From: an uncultured Pelagibacteraceae bacterium
Lineage (GTDB): Bacteria > Pseudomonadota > Alphaproteobacteria > Pelagibacterales > Pelagibacteraceae
Length of the DNA: 64,000 nucleotides
NCBI GenBank assembly: GCA_902521805.1
Contig: CABYTL010000005.1
Coordinates: forward strand, 1 to 64,000
Direction of reading: 5' to 3'
Shown: positions 6,826 to 50,540 of the stretch, piece after piece
Layout of the letters: the number at the start of each line of letters is the position of its first letter
Numbering within the stretch: position 1 is the stretch's first letter
The notes under the pieces: model-generated
Told to the model about the DNA's origin: nothing
The model's input: only the letters and a program-made list of their open reading frames with translations
Database searches by the model: none
Translations under genes and position numbers: made by a program

Positions 6826-6990
6826 ATAAATATGATAATTTGGGATAATTAATTATTTATAATAGATATTATCAAAAGTCATTAATGAATTTAAATTTAA
6901 CATCAATTATAGTAGTTTTAATCTATAAATGAATAAACAACTAAAAAGTAATATTTTATCAATATGTAAATAAGTTAAGACAGTCAAAAT
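6826..6990. other. Divergent intergenic region between licD-like and sulfotransferase-like genes
   Basis: This 165-nt spacer is extremely AT-rich and must hold the promoters for both flanking genes, which point away from each other. I see several small AT palindromes but no convincing -35/-10 pair on either strand, and no open frame or stable GC-containing hairpin. Confidence 0.6.
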
Positions 6991-12066: not shown

Positions 12067-12092
12067 AATGGGGATAATATATGAGTTTATAA

Positions 12093-12122
12093 AAAAAGGG
12101 CTAGAAAAATCTAGCCCTTTTT
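12093..12122 (-). terminator. Intercistronic hairpin between aapJ and aapQ
   Basis: A perfect 12-bp inverted repeat (AAAAAGGGCTAG / CTAGCCCTTTTT) encloses a 6-nt loop. On the minus strand it ends in a run of seven T, so it has the form of an intrinsic terminator. It lies 19 nt past the aapJ stop and 26 nt before aapQ. Such elements after a binding-protein gene typically cause partial termination or protect the upstream mRNA from 3' decay, so AapJ exceeds its permeases. Confidence 0.85.
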
Positions 12123-12141
12123 AAGTAATTAATAACCTAAG

Positions 12142-13182
12142 TTATCTTGATGGCGGAACGTATAAAATACCACCTTTAGTCCATAATTCATTTGGACCTC
12201 TGTCTGGTAAAATACCAGTGTCAGCTATATTTCTTTTATAACTTTCACCATAATTTCCAACTTGTTTGATAATCCTTAAGTTCCACTCGTTATCTAAACC
12301 GAATGCTGCACCCATTTCACCTTCAGCGCCAACTAATCTTTTAATAGCTGGATTATCAGAAGTTTTCATTGAGTCTGCATTTGCTGATGTAATACCATAT
12401 TCCTCAGCTTCAATCATAGTATTTAAAGACCATCTAACGATATCTTCCCATACTGCATCGCCTTGTCTTACAACTGGACCTAATGGCTCCTTAGATATAG
12501 TTTCTGGTAATACAACATGTTCATCAGGATTGCTTAGCTTTATTCTTTGAGCAGCTAAACCTGATTTATCTGTAGTGTATGTATCACATCTTCCAGCATC
12601 ATAAGCTGCAACAACTTCGTCAGCTTTTTCAAAAGTTACTGGTTCATAAGATATTCCTTTTGAATTAAAGAAATCTCTCATATTAAGCTCAGTTGTTGTA
12701 CCTAAATTTGTACAAGCTGAGATTCCATTTTTGAATTGACTTGTTGAAGTGATACCTGAACTTTTTCTAACCATGAAACCTTGACCATCGTAGAAGTTTA
12801 CTCCAACGAAAGTAAGTCCAATATCTGCATCTCTTGAAAGAGTCCAAGTTGTGTTTCTTGATAAGATATCAATCTCACCAGAAGTTAAAGCCGTAAATCT
12901 TTCTTTAGCACTTAGTGGTGTAAACTTAACTTTGTTTGCATCACCTAATACTGCAGCAGCTACTGCTCTACATACATCAACGTCTACACCAGTCCAATTT
13001 CCTGCTGCATCAGCATTAGAAAAACCTGGAAGACCTTGAGATACTCCACATCTCACAAAACCCTTTTTTTGAGTGTTTTTAAGTGTCTTTGATTTTTTAG
13101 CAGCCATAGTTTCTGTTGTAAAAGTAAACAACACTGCAACCATAGCAACTAATGAAGTTAATTGTTTTAAGTATTTAAACAT
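12142..13182 (-). CDS. aapJ: General L-amino acid ABC transporter, periplasmic binding protein
   Basis: AapJ captures amino acids in the periplasm and delivers them to AapQM. The 346-aa protein opens with a signal peptide (charged MFKYLKQ, a hydrophobic core, then ETMAAKK around residue 28). The mature protein is a family 3 solute-binding fold: GFVRCGVSQGLPGF, then DVDVCRAVAAAVLGD, FTALTSGEIDILSRNTTWTL, and the closing GPNELWTKGGILYVPP that marks the AapJ/YhdW group. A clear ribosome-binding site (GGAAGA) precedes the ATG. Codon choice seems less AT-extreme than in its neighbours, as expected for a highly expressed gene. Regulatory structure lies on both sides: a 5' hairpin and palindrome, and a 3' terminator-like stem. 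Confidence 0.95.
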   Translation of the reverse strand: MFKYLKQLTSLVAMVAVLFTFTTETMAAKKSKTLKNTQKKGFVRCGVSQGLPGFSNADAAGNWTGVDVDVCRAVAAAVLGDANKVKFTPLSAKERFTALTSGEIDILSRNTTWTLSRDADIGLTFVGVNFYDGQGFMVRKSSGITSTSQFKNGISACTNLGTTTELNMRDFFNSKGISYEPVTFEKADEVVAAYDAGRCDTYTTDKSGLAAQRIKLSNPDEHVVLPETISKEPLGPVVRQGDAVWEDIVRWSLNTMIEAEEYGITSANADSMKTSDNPAIKRLVGAEGEMGAAFGLDNEWNLRIIKQVGNYGESYKRNIADTGILPDRGPNELWTKGGILYVPPSR

Positions 13183-45331: not shown

Positions 45332-46183
45332 TTATTCACCTATTTTAAATCTTACAAACTCTTTAATCTTTAAGTCTGAAATAGAGAGTTCTTTTAAAAT
45401 ATCTTGAACTTTTTTGTTTGGTTCCATCACCCACGGTTGAGTAAGCAAAGAATTTTCCTCTTTAAATTTGTTCATTTTGCCTACACTTATCTTTTTAATT
45501 ATATCATCTGGTTTACCAGAATTCTTAAGTTCTTCAGCAACCAATTCTTGTTCTTTGTCTATAACAGATTGATCGATTGAGTTTTGATCTAAAGCAAGAG
45601 GATTTGAGGCAGCTATATGCATTGAAAGTTGTTTGCCGAAATTTTTGACTTTATCTGAGATATCTCTGGTTTCCAAAGAAACTGCTACGGCTAACTTTGC
45701 TAAATTATCCTTCACAACTGTATGTAAATATTTTGAATTTACAGAACCAACATTTTCTATTGTTTTAGTTTTACCAATTGTAATTTTTTCTCCAATTTTT
45801 GAAATTAATCCTACGAGATTGTCATCTACTGATTGTCCATTGGCCATTTTAACTTTTTTTAAATTTTCTAAATTTGAATTAACTTGATTGTTTAGATTGC
45901 TTAATTCTTGAACAAAATTTATAAAATCTTCATTTTTAGCTACAAAATCAGTTTCACAGTTCACCTCAATTAGAGATATTTTTATATCATCTCCACTTAC
46001 AGCAATTACACCTTCTTTAGCTTCTCGAGACATTTTTTTTGAAGCTTTTGTAATTCCTTTAACTCTTAAAATCTCAATTGCTTTATCAAGATCTCCTTTA
46101 GATTCCTTAATTGCTAAATTACAATCTTTAAACCCTGCACCTGTAGCTTCTCTTAATTTTTTTACTTTTTCAATATCACTCAT
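45332..46183 (-). CDS. tsf: Elongation factor Ts
   Basis: EF-Ts exchanges GDP for GTP on EF-Tu. The 283-aa protein has the N-terminal UBA-like domain ([20 protein letters not shown]) with the TGAGFKDC motif that contacts EF-Tu, then [14 protein letters not shown] near 75, two core subdomains with [11 protein letters not shown] near 188, and [18 protein letters not shown] near the end. The TAATG overlap with the rpsB stop shows that both are co-translated, so the rpsB leader should control both. Confidence 0.97.
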
Positions 46184-46992
46184 TAATTAAGTGACCCTTT
46201 GATATTTTTTGAAAATTTATTTTCTAATTTTTCTCTATCTAGTTCTTGTATTGTTTTGGTCGATTTTTCTTCTTTTTTGTTATCTAATTTTTTATCTAGC
46301 TTTGGAGCAGTTTGTTTTGATGAAATTATTGTCTCTTTTATCAAATTACAATAAAGATCAATTGATCTTCTAGCGTCATCATTACCTGGAATTGGAAAAT
46401 CAATTCCATCAGGATTTGAGTTACTGTCTAGGATAGCAATTATTGGAATTCCTAACTTTACGGATTCTTGTATAGCTAATGACTCATAATTTGTATCAAT
46501 AATAAACACAAGATCTGGTATCTTTTTCATTTCTGAAATCCCACCTAAAGATCTTTGTAATTTATCTTTTTTTACACTCATCTTTAATAATTCTTTTTTA
46601 GTAAATCCTCTATTCTCAGAAACAAGATCTGTTTCTAATTTTTTCAGTTTTTTTATTGAATTTGATATTGTCCCCCAATTGGTTAACATTCCACCTAACC
46701 ATCTGTAATTAACAAAATATTGATCTGTTTCCTTAGCAAGTTCTGCTATCGCTTCTGAAGCTTGTTTTTTAGTTGAAACAAAAAGTATTTTTCCATTATT
46801 TGAAATTGTTTCGTGAACTTTTTGTAAAGCTATTTTAGTTAATTCTAATGTTTGTGTTAAATCAATTATGTGAATTGAATCTCTTTTTCCAAAAATATAT
46901 TTTTTCATTTTTGGATTCCATCGCAATGTTTTATGTCCTAAATGAACACCAGCTTCTAGTAATTGTTGAATAGTAACGTTAGGTATCTTCAT
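46183..46992 (-). CDS. rpsB: 30S ribosomal protein S2
   Basis: S2 is a late-binding small-subunit protein. I take the start at ATG 46990-46992, giving 269 aa, because [20 protein letters not shown] aligns with the conserved start of S2 proteins. In-frame GTG and ATG codons 8-12 codons upstream would add residues that no family member needs, and they fall inside the structured leader. Conserved segments include [37 protein letters not shown] and the [16 protein letters not shown] region. The C-terminal ~45 residues are lysine-rich and low in complexity. In E. coli, S2 represses its own rpsB-tsf mRNA, and the leader here has features that could do the same. Confidence 0.95.
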
Positions 46993-47000
46993 ATTTATTC

Positions 47001-47061
47001 CCGGTTGAGCCACCATAGTAATTTCCACTTAAGGACCGGAGGTATAAAACCAAATACTATG
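47001..47061 (-). ncRNA. Putative structured leader of rpsB with H-type pseudoknot
   Basis: On the minus strand CAUAGUA (47061-47055) can pair with UACUAUG (47020-47014), 7 bp. CCGGU (47039-47035), located in that loop, can pair with ACCGG (47005-47001), 5 bp, downstream of the first stem. The crossing pattern defines a pseudoknot. Its last strand abuts the GGGA just before the rpsB AUG and could hide the ribosome-binding site. A short GGU/ACC mini-stem may lie in loop 1. This is folding by eye, without covariation. Confidence 0.5.
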
Positions 47062-47084
47062 TGCGTGTTAGTTAATTTACGGGG

Positions 47085-47113
47085 TATTTACTAATTTTTT
47101 ATAGATTAAACAA
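47085..47113 (-). promoter_or_regulatory. Candidate promoter of the rpsB-tsf unit
   Basis: On the minus strand TTGTTT (47113-47108) and TAAATA (47090-47085) are separated by exactly 17 nt. It lies between the dnaE stop and the rpsB leader and would start transcription near 47078, giving a leader of about 85 nt that includes the whole putative pseudoknot. Confidence 0.5.
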
Positions 47114-47120
47114 GTAATAA

Positions 47121-50100
47121 TTATTCAATATTTAAGCTAATTTCTTTATTTCTTAAAATATTAACAGATTTTCTATCAATGTTCCTCGGTGTCTTAAGCT
47201 TAAACTTATGAATTTCAGTCTCATTTTGTATGTTAATATTGACTAAAGTTTCTCCTTTTTCATCTAAAAAACTTTGAATATCTTTGAGTTGGTCCTGAGA
47301 TTTAAGGTTAAGAGTAATCTCTTTAATTTGTTTGCTAAACAAATCTTTAAGAGATGCAATTTTTCTAACATTTATTCTTTTTGTTTTCTCGTTATCAAAA
47401 GAAATAGTTTTGTTTAAAGTTAAGATTAATGATGAGCCTTCTTTTAAGATCTCCCTATTAAGCTCTAAAACATCTGAAAAAATAAATAATTCAAAGACAT
47501 TACTTAAATCTGTTAATTTTAGAACTGCATAAGAATTACCTTTTGCTGTTTTTCTTTCATGAATTTTTAATAAAGTAGCTGCAATATTATTTTCTTTTAA
47601 CTCATTATCATCATAAAATTTTTGATACTCTAGTATTTTATAATCAGCAAATATCTCTTTAAATTGATTTAGGGGATGATCAGATATAAAAAAACCAAGA
47701 GACTCAAATTCTTTAGATAGTCTTTCCTCAAAATGCCAGTCTTTAATATTTTGTATTATATCTGTTTGATTTTCTTCAATATCTCCAAATAAATCAATCT
47801 GATTTATAGACTTGGTGTCATAATCATTTTTAGATTTTGTTATTAAATTTGGTATAGACTTAAATATTGATTGTCTATTATTATTTAAGTTGTCGAAAGC
47901 ACCAGCTTTAACCAGTCCTTCTAACTGTAATTTGTTAATATCTTTTGGATTCACTCTTTTTATGAAATCAATGATAGATAAAAATTTTCCATTATCTAAT
48001 CTTTCTTTAACAATGTTGGAAATTGCTTCTGATCCTACAGCTTTAACTGCACCTAAAGCATAATAAAATTTATTATTTTCAGTTTTAAATTGAGAAAAAC
48101 ATTCGTTTATATTAGGCCTTACCACATTGATATTTAATCTTTTTAATTCTTCGTAAAATTCACTCAACTTATTTTGATTTGAAATGTCCATTGTCATTGA
48201 AGCTGCTATAAACTCTTTTGGAAAATAAGTTTTTAAATAAGCTGTTTGATAAGATATAATAGCATAAGCTGCGGCATGACTTTTATTAAAACCATATTCT
48301 GCAAATGGTTCTATCTTTAAAAAAATACCAGCTGCAACATCTTTGCTGATACCATTGTTGACTGCTCCAGCAATAAAATTTTGTTTTTGTTTTTCTAATT
48401 CAGCTCTTTTCTTTTTTCCCATGGCTCTTCTTAACAAATCAGCTTGTCCAGCTGTAAAACCGGATAACTTTTGTGCGATTTGCATAACTTGTTCTTGATA
48501 AATTATTACCCCATAGGTAGGCTTTAAAATGTCTTCTAAAAAGGGATGGAGATAATCGGGTTTTTTTCTACCATGTTTACAATCATTATAAATTTGAATA
48601 TTGCTCATTGGTCCTGGTCTGTATAAAGCAACTAATGCTATGATATCTTCTATATGATTTGGCTTCATATGAACAAGAGCATCTCTCATACCTGCGCTTT
48701 CAATTTGAAATAATCCAACAGTTTTACCTGATGACATAAGTTCAAAAACTTTTGGATCTTCAAAACTTATTTCTTCGATCTCAAAATTTTCATTTTTTTT
48801 TCTAATTAATTTTTGTGTATTACTTATTACTGTTAATGTTTTTAATCCTAAAAAATCAAACTTAACTAATCCAGCATTTTCAGCTGAGTACATGTCAAAT
48901 TGTGTTGAGGGCAATAATAAATCCGCTGAAGAGTCCTTGTATAAGGGAACTATATCTTTTAGTTTTTTATCAGCTATTACCACTCCAGCAGCGTGAGTTG
49001 CAACATTTCTATTAAGTCCCTCTAATTTTAATGATAATTCAGTAAGTTTTTTTACTTTTGGATCCTCATTGATCATTTTTTGTAATCTTGGTTCACCAGC
49101 AATACATTCTGATAAAGTTTGTGGTCTTGATGGATCAAATGGTATCATTTTTGAAATATTATCGACAAATCCGTAGGCAAAACCTAAAACTCTTCCGACA
49201 TCTCTGATAACCATTCTTGCTTTTAATTTTCCAAACGTGATTATATGTGCAACACTATCTTTATATTTTCGATTAAGATATTCAAAAACTAAATCTCTTT
49301 TTTCCTCGCAAAAATCTATATCGAAATCAGGCATTGAAATTCTATCCGGATTTAAAAACCTTTCAAAAATTAGATTATATTTAATGGGGTCTACATCAGT
49401 AATCGACAAACACCATGCAACAAGAGAACCAGCGCCTGAACCCCTTCCTGGTCCTACAGGTATATCATTATTCTTTGCCCATTTTATATAATCTGATACA
49501 ATAAGAAAATAACTTGAATAATCCATTTTAATAATTATTTCTAATTCATGATACAATCGATCTTTATAAATTAAAAAATTTTTATCATTTTCGATTTGTT
49601 CAGGATTCAATCTAAAATATTTTATAAATTTTTCTTTTAATCCATTGATAGAGTCTTTCTTAATTATATCATTTGCATTTCCATCTTCTAAAGAACTGAT
49701 ATTTGGTAAAATTGGTTTTGAAAAAAGTGGCCTAAAACTACACCTTAAAGGAAAATTATAATTATTTTCAAGTGCCTCTGGTAAATCAAAAAATAATGCT
49801 GACATTTCTTTGTCATTTTTTAAATAATGCTCAGAACTATACCTAATTCTATTTTTTTCGTTTAGATAAGTTTTGTTGCCGATACAAATTAAAGCATCAT
49901 GTGCTTCGTGCATATCCTTTCTTAAATAAAAAACTTCATTCGTTGCGATTAATGGTATCTTTAATTTTTCAGATGAATTAAGATTATATCGTTCAAAAGC
50001 TTGTTCATTTCGATCATTGTGTCTTTGAATTTCAATGTAAAATCTATCTTCAAATTTTTTTTTAAAAATCTTATAAAGATTTGATATTTCAGAAAACTTA

Positions 50101-50540
50101 CCTTTATCAAATAATTTTCCAAATAGACCATAGGATGTACCAGAGAAAACAGAAATTCCATAATTATCAGTTTCTATCAAACTATTCAAATCTAGATGAG
50201 GTTCAGACTCTTCGTTATTATTTAAATAAGAGTTAGATGAAAGTTCAATAATCTTCTTATAACCCTCTTCATTAAGAGCAAAAAGAGGTATTAAACCAAT
50301 GGTATTTTGAAATTTAAAATAAATTTGCGTTCCAATTATAGGTTGTGTTCCAACTTTTGAGAGTTTCTCAGAAAATTCAATTGCACCACACATATTCGAG
50401 GTATCACATAATCCTAGTGTTTTTAATTTCAATTCTTTAGCTTGATCTTTTAAATCATCAATTTTTAAAGCTCCTTCACAGATTGAGAATTGTGAATGAA
50501 TTTTTAAATTGTTAAAATTTTTATTTTTAGACTCGCCCAT
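47121..50540 (-). CDS. dnaE: DNA polymerase III alpha subunit
   Basis: DnaE is the replicative polymerase. The 1139-aa protein has the N-terminal PHP domain (LKIHSQFSICEGALKIDDL, though metal-binding histidines look partly lost as in other proteobacteria). The polymerase core contains PVGPGRGSGAGSLVAW near 352 and the catalytic aspartates in PDFDIDFCEEKRD near 395. HAAGVVIADK, then GLFQIESAGMRD and ALYRPGPMSN follow. The later ADLLRRAMGKK and GFNKSHAAAYA are also diagnostic. A C-terminal OB-fold region includes VLKLTDLSNVFELFIF. It overlaps lolD by 14 nt and is somewhat shorter than the E. coli enzyme (1160 aa). Confidence 0.97.
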   Translation of the reverse strand: MGESKNKNFNNLKIHSQFSICEGALKIDDLKDQAKELKLKTLGLCDTSNMCGAIEFSEKLSKVGTQPIIGTQIYFKFQNTIGLIPLFALNEEGYKKIIELSSNSYLNNNEESEPHLDLNSLIETDNYGISVFSGTSYGLFGKLFDKGKFSEISNLYKIFKKKFEDRFYIEIQRHNDRNEQAFERYNLNSSEKLKIPLIATNEVFYLRKDMHEAHDALICIGNKTYLNEKNRIRYSSEHYLKNDKEMSALFFDLPEALENNYNFPLRCSFRPLFSKPILPNISSLEDGNANDIIKKDSINGLKEKFIKYFRLNPEQIENDKNFLIYKDRLYHELEIIIKMDYSSYFLIVSDYIKWAKNNDIPVGPGRGSGAGSLVAWCLSITDVDPIKYNLIFERFLNPDRISMPDFDIDFCEEKRDLVFEYLNRKYKDSVAHIITFGKLKARMVIRDVGRVLGFAYGFVDNISKMIPFDPSRPQTLSECIAGEPRLQKMINEDPKVKKLTELSLKLEGLNRNVATHAAGVVIADKKLKDIVPLYKDSSADLLLPSTQFDMYSAENAGLVKFDFLGLKTLTVISNTQKLIRKKNENFEIEEISFEDPKVFELMSSGKTVGLFQIESAGMRDALVHMKPNHIEDIIALVALYRPGPMSNIQIYNDCKHGRKKPDYLHPFLEDILKPTYGVIIYQEQVMQIAQKLSGFTAGQADLLRRAMGKKKRAELEKQKQNFIAGAVNNGISKDVAAGIFLKIEPFAEYGFNKSHAAAYAIISYQTAYLKTYFPKEFIAASMTMDISNQNKLSEFYEELKRLNINVVRPNINECFSQFKTENNKFYYALGAVKAVGSEAISNIVKERLDNGKFLSIIDFIKRVNPKDINKLQLEGLVKAGAFDNLNNNRQSIFKSIPNLITKSKNDYDTKSINQIDLFGDIEENQTDIIQNIKDWHFEERLSKEFESLGFFISDHPLNQFKEIFADYKILEYQKFYDDNELKENNIAATLLKIHERKTAKGNSYAVLKLTDLSNVFELFIFSDVLELNREILKEGSSLILTLNKTISFDNEKTKRINVRKIASLKDLFSKQIKEITLNLKSQDQLKDIQSFLDEKGETLVNINIQNETEIHKFKLKTPRNIDRKSVNILRNKEISLNIE

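Follow-up and report, generated by a model that had tools for sequence, protein, structure and literature searches.

The leader between dnaE and rpsB-tsf in the window (the whole stretch of 64,000 nt that was analysed) is, judged by comparison with its relatives, a real folded mRNA element. It is already known as the SAR11 rpsB motif, described in 2009, and is an ordinary member save for an unusual closeness to the start codon. With high confidence we identify it as that motif, with helices P1 and P2, a short putative P3 and a pseudoknot, to which ribosomal protein S2 would bind and so repress its own rpsB-tsf message. A published ribosomal-protein leader of SAR11, a group of very abundant marine bacteria, is thus confirmed from raw sequence.

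Locus and Architecture of the Leader

The order on the minus strand is dnaE, leader, rpsB and tsf, as given by open reading frames and Pfam domains (Table 1), with a gap of 128 nt (46993-47120) between the dnaE stop and the ATG of rpsB. The first-pass annotation had placed two crossing stems in this gap, and both are present: a 7-bp stem, CAUAGUA (47061-47055) with UACUAUG (47020-47014), is crossed by CCGGU/ACCGG. Its observation that the second stem touches the GGGA before the start codon also holds, since the GGGA lies at 47002-46999 and the pseudoknot strand ends at 47001. The reading as an H-type pseudoknot is correct in that the 7-bp and 5-bp stems cross, but the element is no plain two-stem knot, because two short helices, P2 and a putative P3, and the outer end of P1 had been overlooked. 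P1 extends past the bulged A at 47062, and P2 and P3 sit in its loop, so that the structured rpsB-tsf leader as first described was right in both stems and incomplete in architecture, the actual one being P1, P2, P3 and the pseudoknot. P3, read by eye and too loosely aligned to enter the covariation count below, is longer in some relatives.

Table 1. Features of the dnaE-rpsB-tsf locus, with positions in the window
Feature	Position	Strand	Evidence
dnaE (DNA polymerase III alpha)	47121..50540	-	Pfam PF07733 and three further domains
Promoter-like pair: TTGTTT 47113-47108, 17 nt, TAAATA 47090-47085	47085..47113	-	Sequence
P1 5' strand CGCACAUAGUA, bulged A at 47062	47055..47065	-	RF01815 alignment, family alignment, covariation count
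P2: GGU 47051-47049 with ACC 47043-47041	47041..47051	-	Covariation count
Pseudoknot 5' strand CCGGU	47035..47039	-	149/150 with exact partner; compensated differences outside the class
P3: CC 47034-47033 with GG 47026-47025, 2 bp in the window	47025..47034	-	Read by eye
P1 3' strand UACUAUGGUG	47011..47020	-	Family alignment, covariation count
Pseudoknot 3' strand ACCGG, end 8 nt before ATG	47001..47005	-	Family loci; other classes
GGA, sole Shine-Dalgarno-like triplet; first G shared with the pseudoknot strand as its final base	46999..47001	-	Sequence
rpsB (ribosomal protein S2), ATG 46992-46990	46183..46992	-	Pfam PF00318 Ribosomal_S2, E 5.7e-87
tsf (elongation factor Ts)	45332..46183	-	Pfam PF00889 EF_TS, E 2.7e-60

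The mechanical list of open reading frames carries rpsB as 46183-47028 on the minus strand, with GTG 47028 as its start. The start is likely ATG 46992 instead, where homology begins in an alignment of S2 homologues, and GTG 47028 is improbable for this reason. That the stretch is partly coding, with rpsB beginning at the in-frame GTG, has in our estimate a probability close to negligible: the frame is indeed open as far as 47028 in this genome, but in 91 of the 150 family loci described below the frame is closed by a stop no more than 12 codons 5' of the ATG (in the other 59 it is not), and S2 homology begins at the ATG. On these two grounds we set aside an S2 lengthened at its N-terminus from GTG 47028. 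In this genome, a gene caller could take part of the leader for S2.

Conservation and Covariation in the Family

From one sequence alone, the crossing stems barely exceed chance. When 5000 dinucleotide shuffles were made of the 121-nt stretch, 54% of them held a 7-bp stem and 5.5% held one that a 5-bp stem with 4 or more G/C crosses, and the fold energy of the single sequence is the same as that of the shuffles (z 0.11). It is the relatives that, by sequence comparison, decide for the reality of the element. Among 197 genomes of the family, 156 gave a match in a search for S2, and the DNA 5' of rpsB was taken blind to the motif at 149 loci from 148 genomes, which together with the window make 150 loci; this leader set covers 149 of the 156 S2-matching genomes, that is, all among the matches listed.

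The core GGNGG...AACC is present in all 150 leaders, and the bulged A, C15, C17, G81 and G83 are invariant throughout the alignment. (The core parser misregistered a few rows: it scored the bulged A in 147 leaders, where the alignment gives 150, and returned 4 of 6 P1 pairs at two of the 150 loci.) The pseudoknot is exactly CCGGU/ACCGG in 149 leaders; the lone exception, locus L196 of genome G040, has ACCGA as the 3' strand.

Covariation was counted over the 139 distinct rows of the 150, for P1, P2 and the pseudoknot together, with shuffled alignments and slid partners as controls. Standard pairs occupy 95.5% of cells, versus 88.0% in the shuffled and 31.9-51.1% in the slid controls; changes on both sides of a pair are found in 204 cells, versus 7-84 with slid partners; and the covariation score is 0.236, versus 0.098 shuffled and 0.021-0.069 slid. 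Two other measures are almost matched by slid controls, namely the number of pairs with changes on both sides (9, of which six in P1 and three in P2, versus 2-7) and the number of further pair types (23, versus 22 in one slid control). By helix, P1 has both-side changes in 6 of its 9 counted pairs with 94.3% of cells paired, and P2 in all 3 pairs with 92.3% of cells paired. The innermost pair of P1 is weak, being unpaired in 62 of the 139 rows. The position 47064/47012 was omitted from the pair count as often non-Watson-Crick (G-U in 129 of the 150 leaders, G-A in 17, U-C in three and A-A in one). The rows of L167, L176 and L186 are unpaired at columns 19/80 and 23/76, and by eye these leaders do pair if they are moved one base along next to the bulge. 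When RNAalifold was applied to the family alignment, it drew P2, the pseudoknot and two further pairs; P1 is absent from this drawing because crossing stems cannot be drawn together.

No both-side change was seen in the pseudoknot among the 139 distinct rows, and with CCGGU/ACCGG in 149 of the 150 leaders it cannot covary inside the family. The absence of compensatory change from both stems, which had been named in advance as the outcome that would speak against the element, is not what the relatives gave. The expectation of such changes in both stems is borne out for P1 within the family, while for the pseudoknot the family offers none and the compensated differences lie outside it.

Leaders in Other Families and Classes

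P1 and P2, as aligned in the family, were used to build a covariance model. It matches one place in the window's own genome (83% complete, and part of the training set); across the order it matches 120 of the 147 genomes and leaves 27 without a match. From a second family of the order, outside the training of the model, 20 of the 32 matching genomes were fetched (L264-L283). All 20 fetched matches lie directly 5' of the rpsB start and have CCGGU/ACCGG 8-10 nt before the start codon; at L271 the script took a wrong site, and the locus was read by eye. The outer GGNGG is replaced by GGAUG in 18 of the 20. The outer part of P1 is therefore not universal, and its outer pairs seem to be dispensable in the second family.

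More distant leaders were collected as the best matches to Rfam models, so that their agreement with the family is partly a matter of selection. The same-class set comprises the loci of the 30 best RF01815 matches, of which 27 were parsed and 3 were not, and the pseudoknot is CCGGU/ACCGG in all 27. The t44-type set of 31 consists of the 30 best t44 matches from other classes of the phylum, presumably Gammaproteobacteria, plus E. coli. Behind the same P1, the pseudoknot of these leaders is GGGGU/ACCCC in 25 cases, the group to which the E. coli leader belongs, CGGGU/ACCCG in two and UGGGU/ACCCG in four.

The E. coli rpsB leader, classified by Rfam as t44 (RF00127), has the same core as the window leader. 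All 31 t44-type leaders have C-N-C-A, with the A bulged, before P1 and G-G-N-G-G after it, as found by a parser that favours both C, and they likewise have a 5-bp pseudoknot ending in U-A. They differ in the pseudoknot itself, which is mostly GGGGU/ACCCC. Rfam splits the rpsB leaders that share this core into two families of type sRNA, RF01815 and RF00127.

Identity with the Published rpsB Motif

The guess that structured RNA before the Pelagibacter rpsB might already have been proposed proved right. The accessible sections of Meyer et al. 2009 (PMC2704228) present the "rpsB motif" of Cand. Pelagibacter ubique, where a 129-nt gap parts dnaE from rpsB, as P1, a 3-bp P2, a 2-bp P3 (missing in their discussion) and a pseudoknot; they count it among the shortest and state that P3 can be very short or missing. 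In the available part of a 2019 paper (PMC6429828) the rpsB RNA is found again, in the SAR11 strain HIMB5. As far as these sections of Meyer et al. go, the window leader shares with the motif the gap, the gene order, the P1 topped by P2 and, as read by eye, P3, and a pseudoknot that joins J2-3 to the segment 3' of P1; its 3-bp P2 and apparent 2-bp P3 are those of Cand. P. ubique, and no essential difference emerges beyond a score below the Rfam cut-off. It is a 5' leader of rpsB with a covarying P1, a P2 and a J2-3 pseudoknot, and it does not reach that cut-off.

The Rfam comparison proposed at the outset gave a divided answer. The rpsB family RF01815 aligns with the element from end to end (47065-46983), at 28.7 bits against a gathering cut-off of 40; the E-value is 7.4e-4 on the short stretch and 0.11 when the search spans the window. 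With curated cut-offs, only three tRNAs are reported in the whole window, and the leader element appears in E-value mode only. The t44 model matches nothing in 46800-47250 even at an E-value limit of 5 and, under strict filters, nothing in this genome. Within the family, RF01815 matches 118 of 197 genomes at E of 0.001 or less and exceeds the cut-off in none of them (the stricter filters of this search skipped the window's own genome, which was found by a separate search), whereas in the class 73 of the 171 matching genomes, among 289, are over the cut-off. The gathering cut-off is a curator's threshold and stands outside the published definition of the motif, and the very group that served to describe the motif falls short of it; the element is assigned to that motif, and not to RF01815 by score. 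Pipelines that use the RF01815 cut-off would miss it, as 0 of 197 family genomes pass. Two other sub-threshold Rfam matches in the window, a flavivirus hairpin at 6929-6966 on the plus strand (E 0.012) and DapZ at 12088-12158 on the minus strand (E 0.15), are most likely due to chance.

Among titles and abstract openings, with subscription papers largely beyond reach, no special SAR11 form of the rpsB leader was found in the literature. By description, and not by sequence, the element can also be likened to the rpsO and alpha-operon leaders, which serve other proteins (S15 and S4): according to the available part of a 2024 review (PMC10931766), these too let a ribosomal protein control its own translation by way of a pseudoknot.

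Regulation by S2 and Distance to the Start Codon

The first-pass annotation had named a leader element by which S2 of E. coli represses the rpsB-tsf mRNA that encodes it, and this is reported both by Meyer et al. 2009 (PMC2704228) and by the 2024 review (PMC10931766), in the parts available of each. In the accessible sections of the review, excess S2 represses rpsB-tsf and S1 is required; a small deletion of a conserved bulge may abolish control; in-cell probing found that the leader shares its architecture with the sites of S2 in 16S rRNA; and the E. coli ribosome site lies outside the operator. By analogy, S2 most likely represses its own rpsB-tsf mRNA in SAR11 as it does in E. coli, with S2 as the inferred ligand. 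By comparison with its relatives, the rpsB-tsf 5' UTR folds into P1 with its conserved bulged A, topped by the short P2 and putative P3 hairpins; the pseudoknot arises where the stretch that joins these two hairpins pairs with ACCGG just 3' of P1. S2 in excess of free 30S subunits would then bind the leader, helped in E. coli by S1, and the bound S2 would halt translation of its own message, with EF-Ts lowered as well. Since some 8 nt separate it from the start codon in the window, the pseudoknot may block initiation directly.

The last step concerns the one unusual property of the SAR11 leaders. From the end of the pseudoknot to the ATG there are 3-12 nt at the 150 family loci (median 8). The corresponding distance to the start codon is 12-20 nt in the same class and 15-25 nt in the t44-type set, figures that, like the Shine-Dalgarno counts for these two sets, come from the 20 of 30 and 21 of 31 loci parsed by the first parser. 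A Shine-Dalgarno-like match of at least 4 nt between pseudoknot and ATG occurs in 8 of the 150 SAR11 leaders and is lacking in 142, and it occurs in all 41 parsed loci of the two other sets. The best Shine-Dalgarno-like letters in 131 of the 150 leaders are a GGA from the end of the pseudoknot strand, and the 16S end of this genome is the usual CCUCC. Weak Shine-Dalgarno sequences are common in the window (among its 54 long open reading frames, taken with mechanical starts, the match is up to 3 nt in 34, absent in 8 and at least 4 nt in 12), and the loss is therefore not special to rpsB.

A pseudoknot ending 3-12 nt before the ATG makes direct masking of the ribosome site plausible in SAR11. 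The further proposal that SAR11 streamlining fused the operator with the ribosome site, so that S2, in contrast to E. coli, would act by masking this site directly, is tentative and has, as we see it, not quite an even chance of being right. Either way, the compact SAR11 form offers a small test object for a self-repression by S2 that the review, in its accessible part, calls "mechanistically unclear" (PMC10931766).

Alternatively, the leader could be a constitutive aid to initiation and no S2 operator at all, its pseudoknot recruiting S1 or keeping an mRNA almost devoid of a Shine-Dalgarno sequence open. Pseudoknots are high-affinity targets of S1 according to the available part of the review (PMC10931766), and the GGA is the sole Shine-Dalgarno-like triplet at the rpsB of the window. 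However, the same core stands before E. coli rpsB, where it is the reported site of repression by S2, and since weak Shine-Dalgarno sequences are common in the window, rpsB is in no need of special help; we consider this explanation unlikely.

Promoter and Transcript

The Rfam type is 'sRNA' for both families, RF01815 and t44, and in E. coli the element is annotated as 'putative small RNA T44', labels that would suit a small RNA acting in trans. Against such a role, at 150 of 150 loci the pseudoknot stops 3-12 nt short of the rpsB start, the model finds one place in this genome (83% complete), and a strict scan of 46900-47300 gave no terminator-like site. We regard a trans-acting small RNA as highly improbable, and it was set aside for its position at rpsB, its single place and the lack of a terminator. 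Transcription attenuation was likewise considered and then set aside.

For the leader as part of the rpsB-tsf mRNA, the first-pass annotation had proposed a promoter-like pair of ideal spacing. The 17-nt spacer stands, as does a leader of about 85 nt from the implied transcription start near 47078; the agreement with the sigma-70 consensus is less close, at three plus three matching positions, and a scan of the region by strict consensus returned no sigma-70 promoter. By a criterion fixed post hoc, after the window had been seen, TTG-(16-18)-TA within 60 nt before P1 is found at 150 of 150 loci versus 37.6 expected from shuffles. The best-scoring TTG/TA pair lies 0-29 nt before P1, so that its position differs in some rows.
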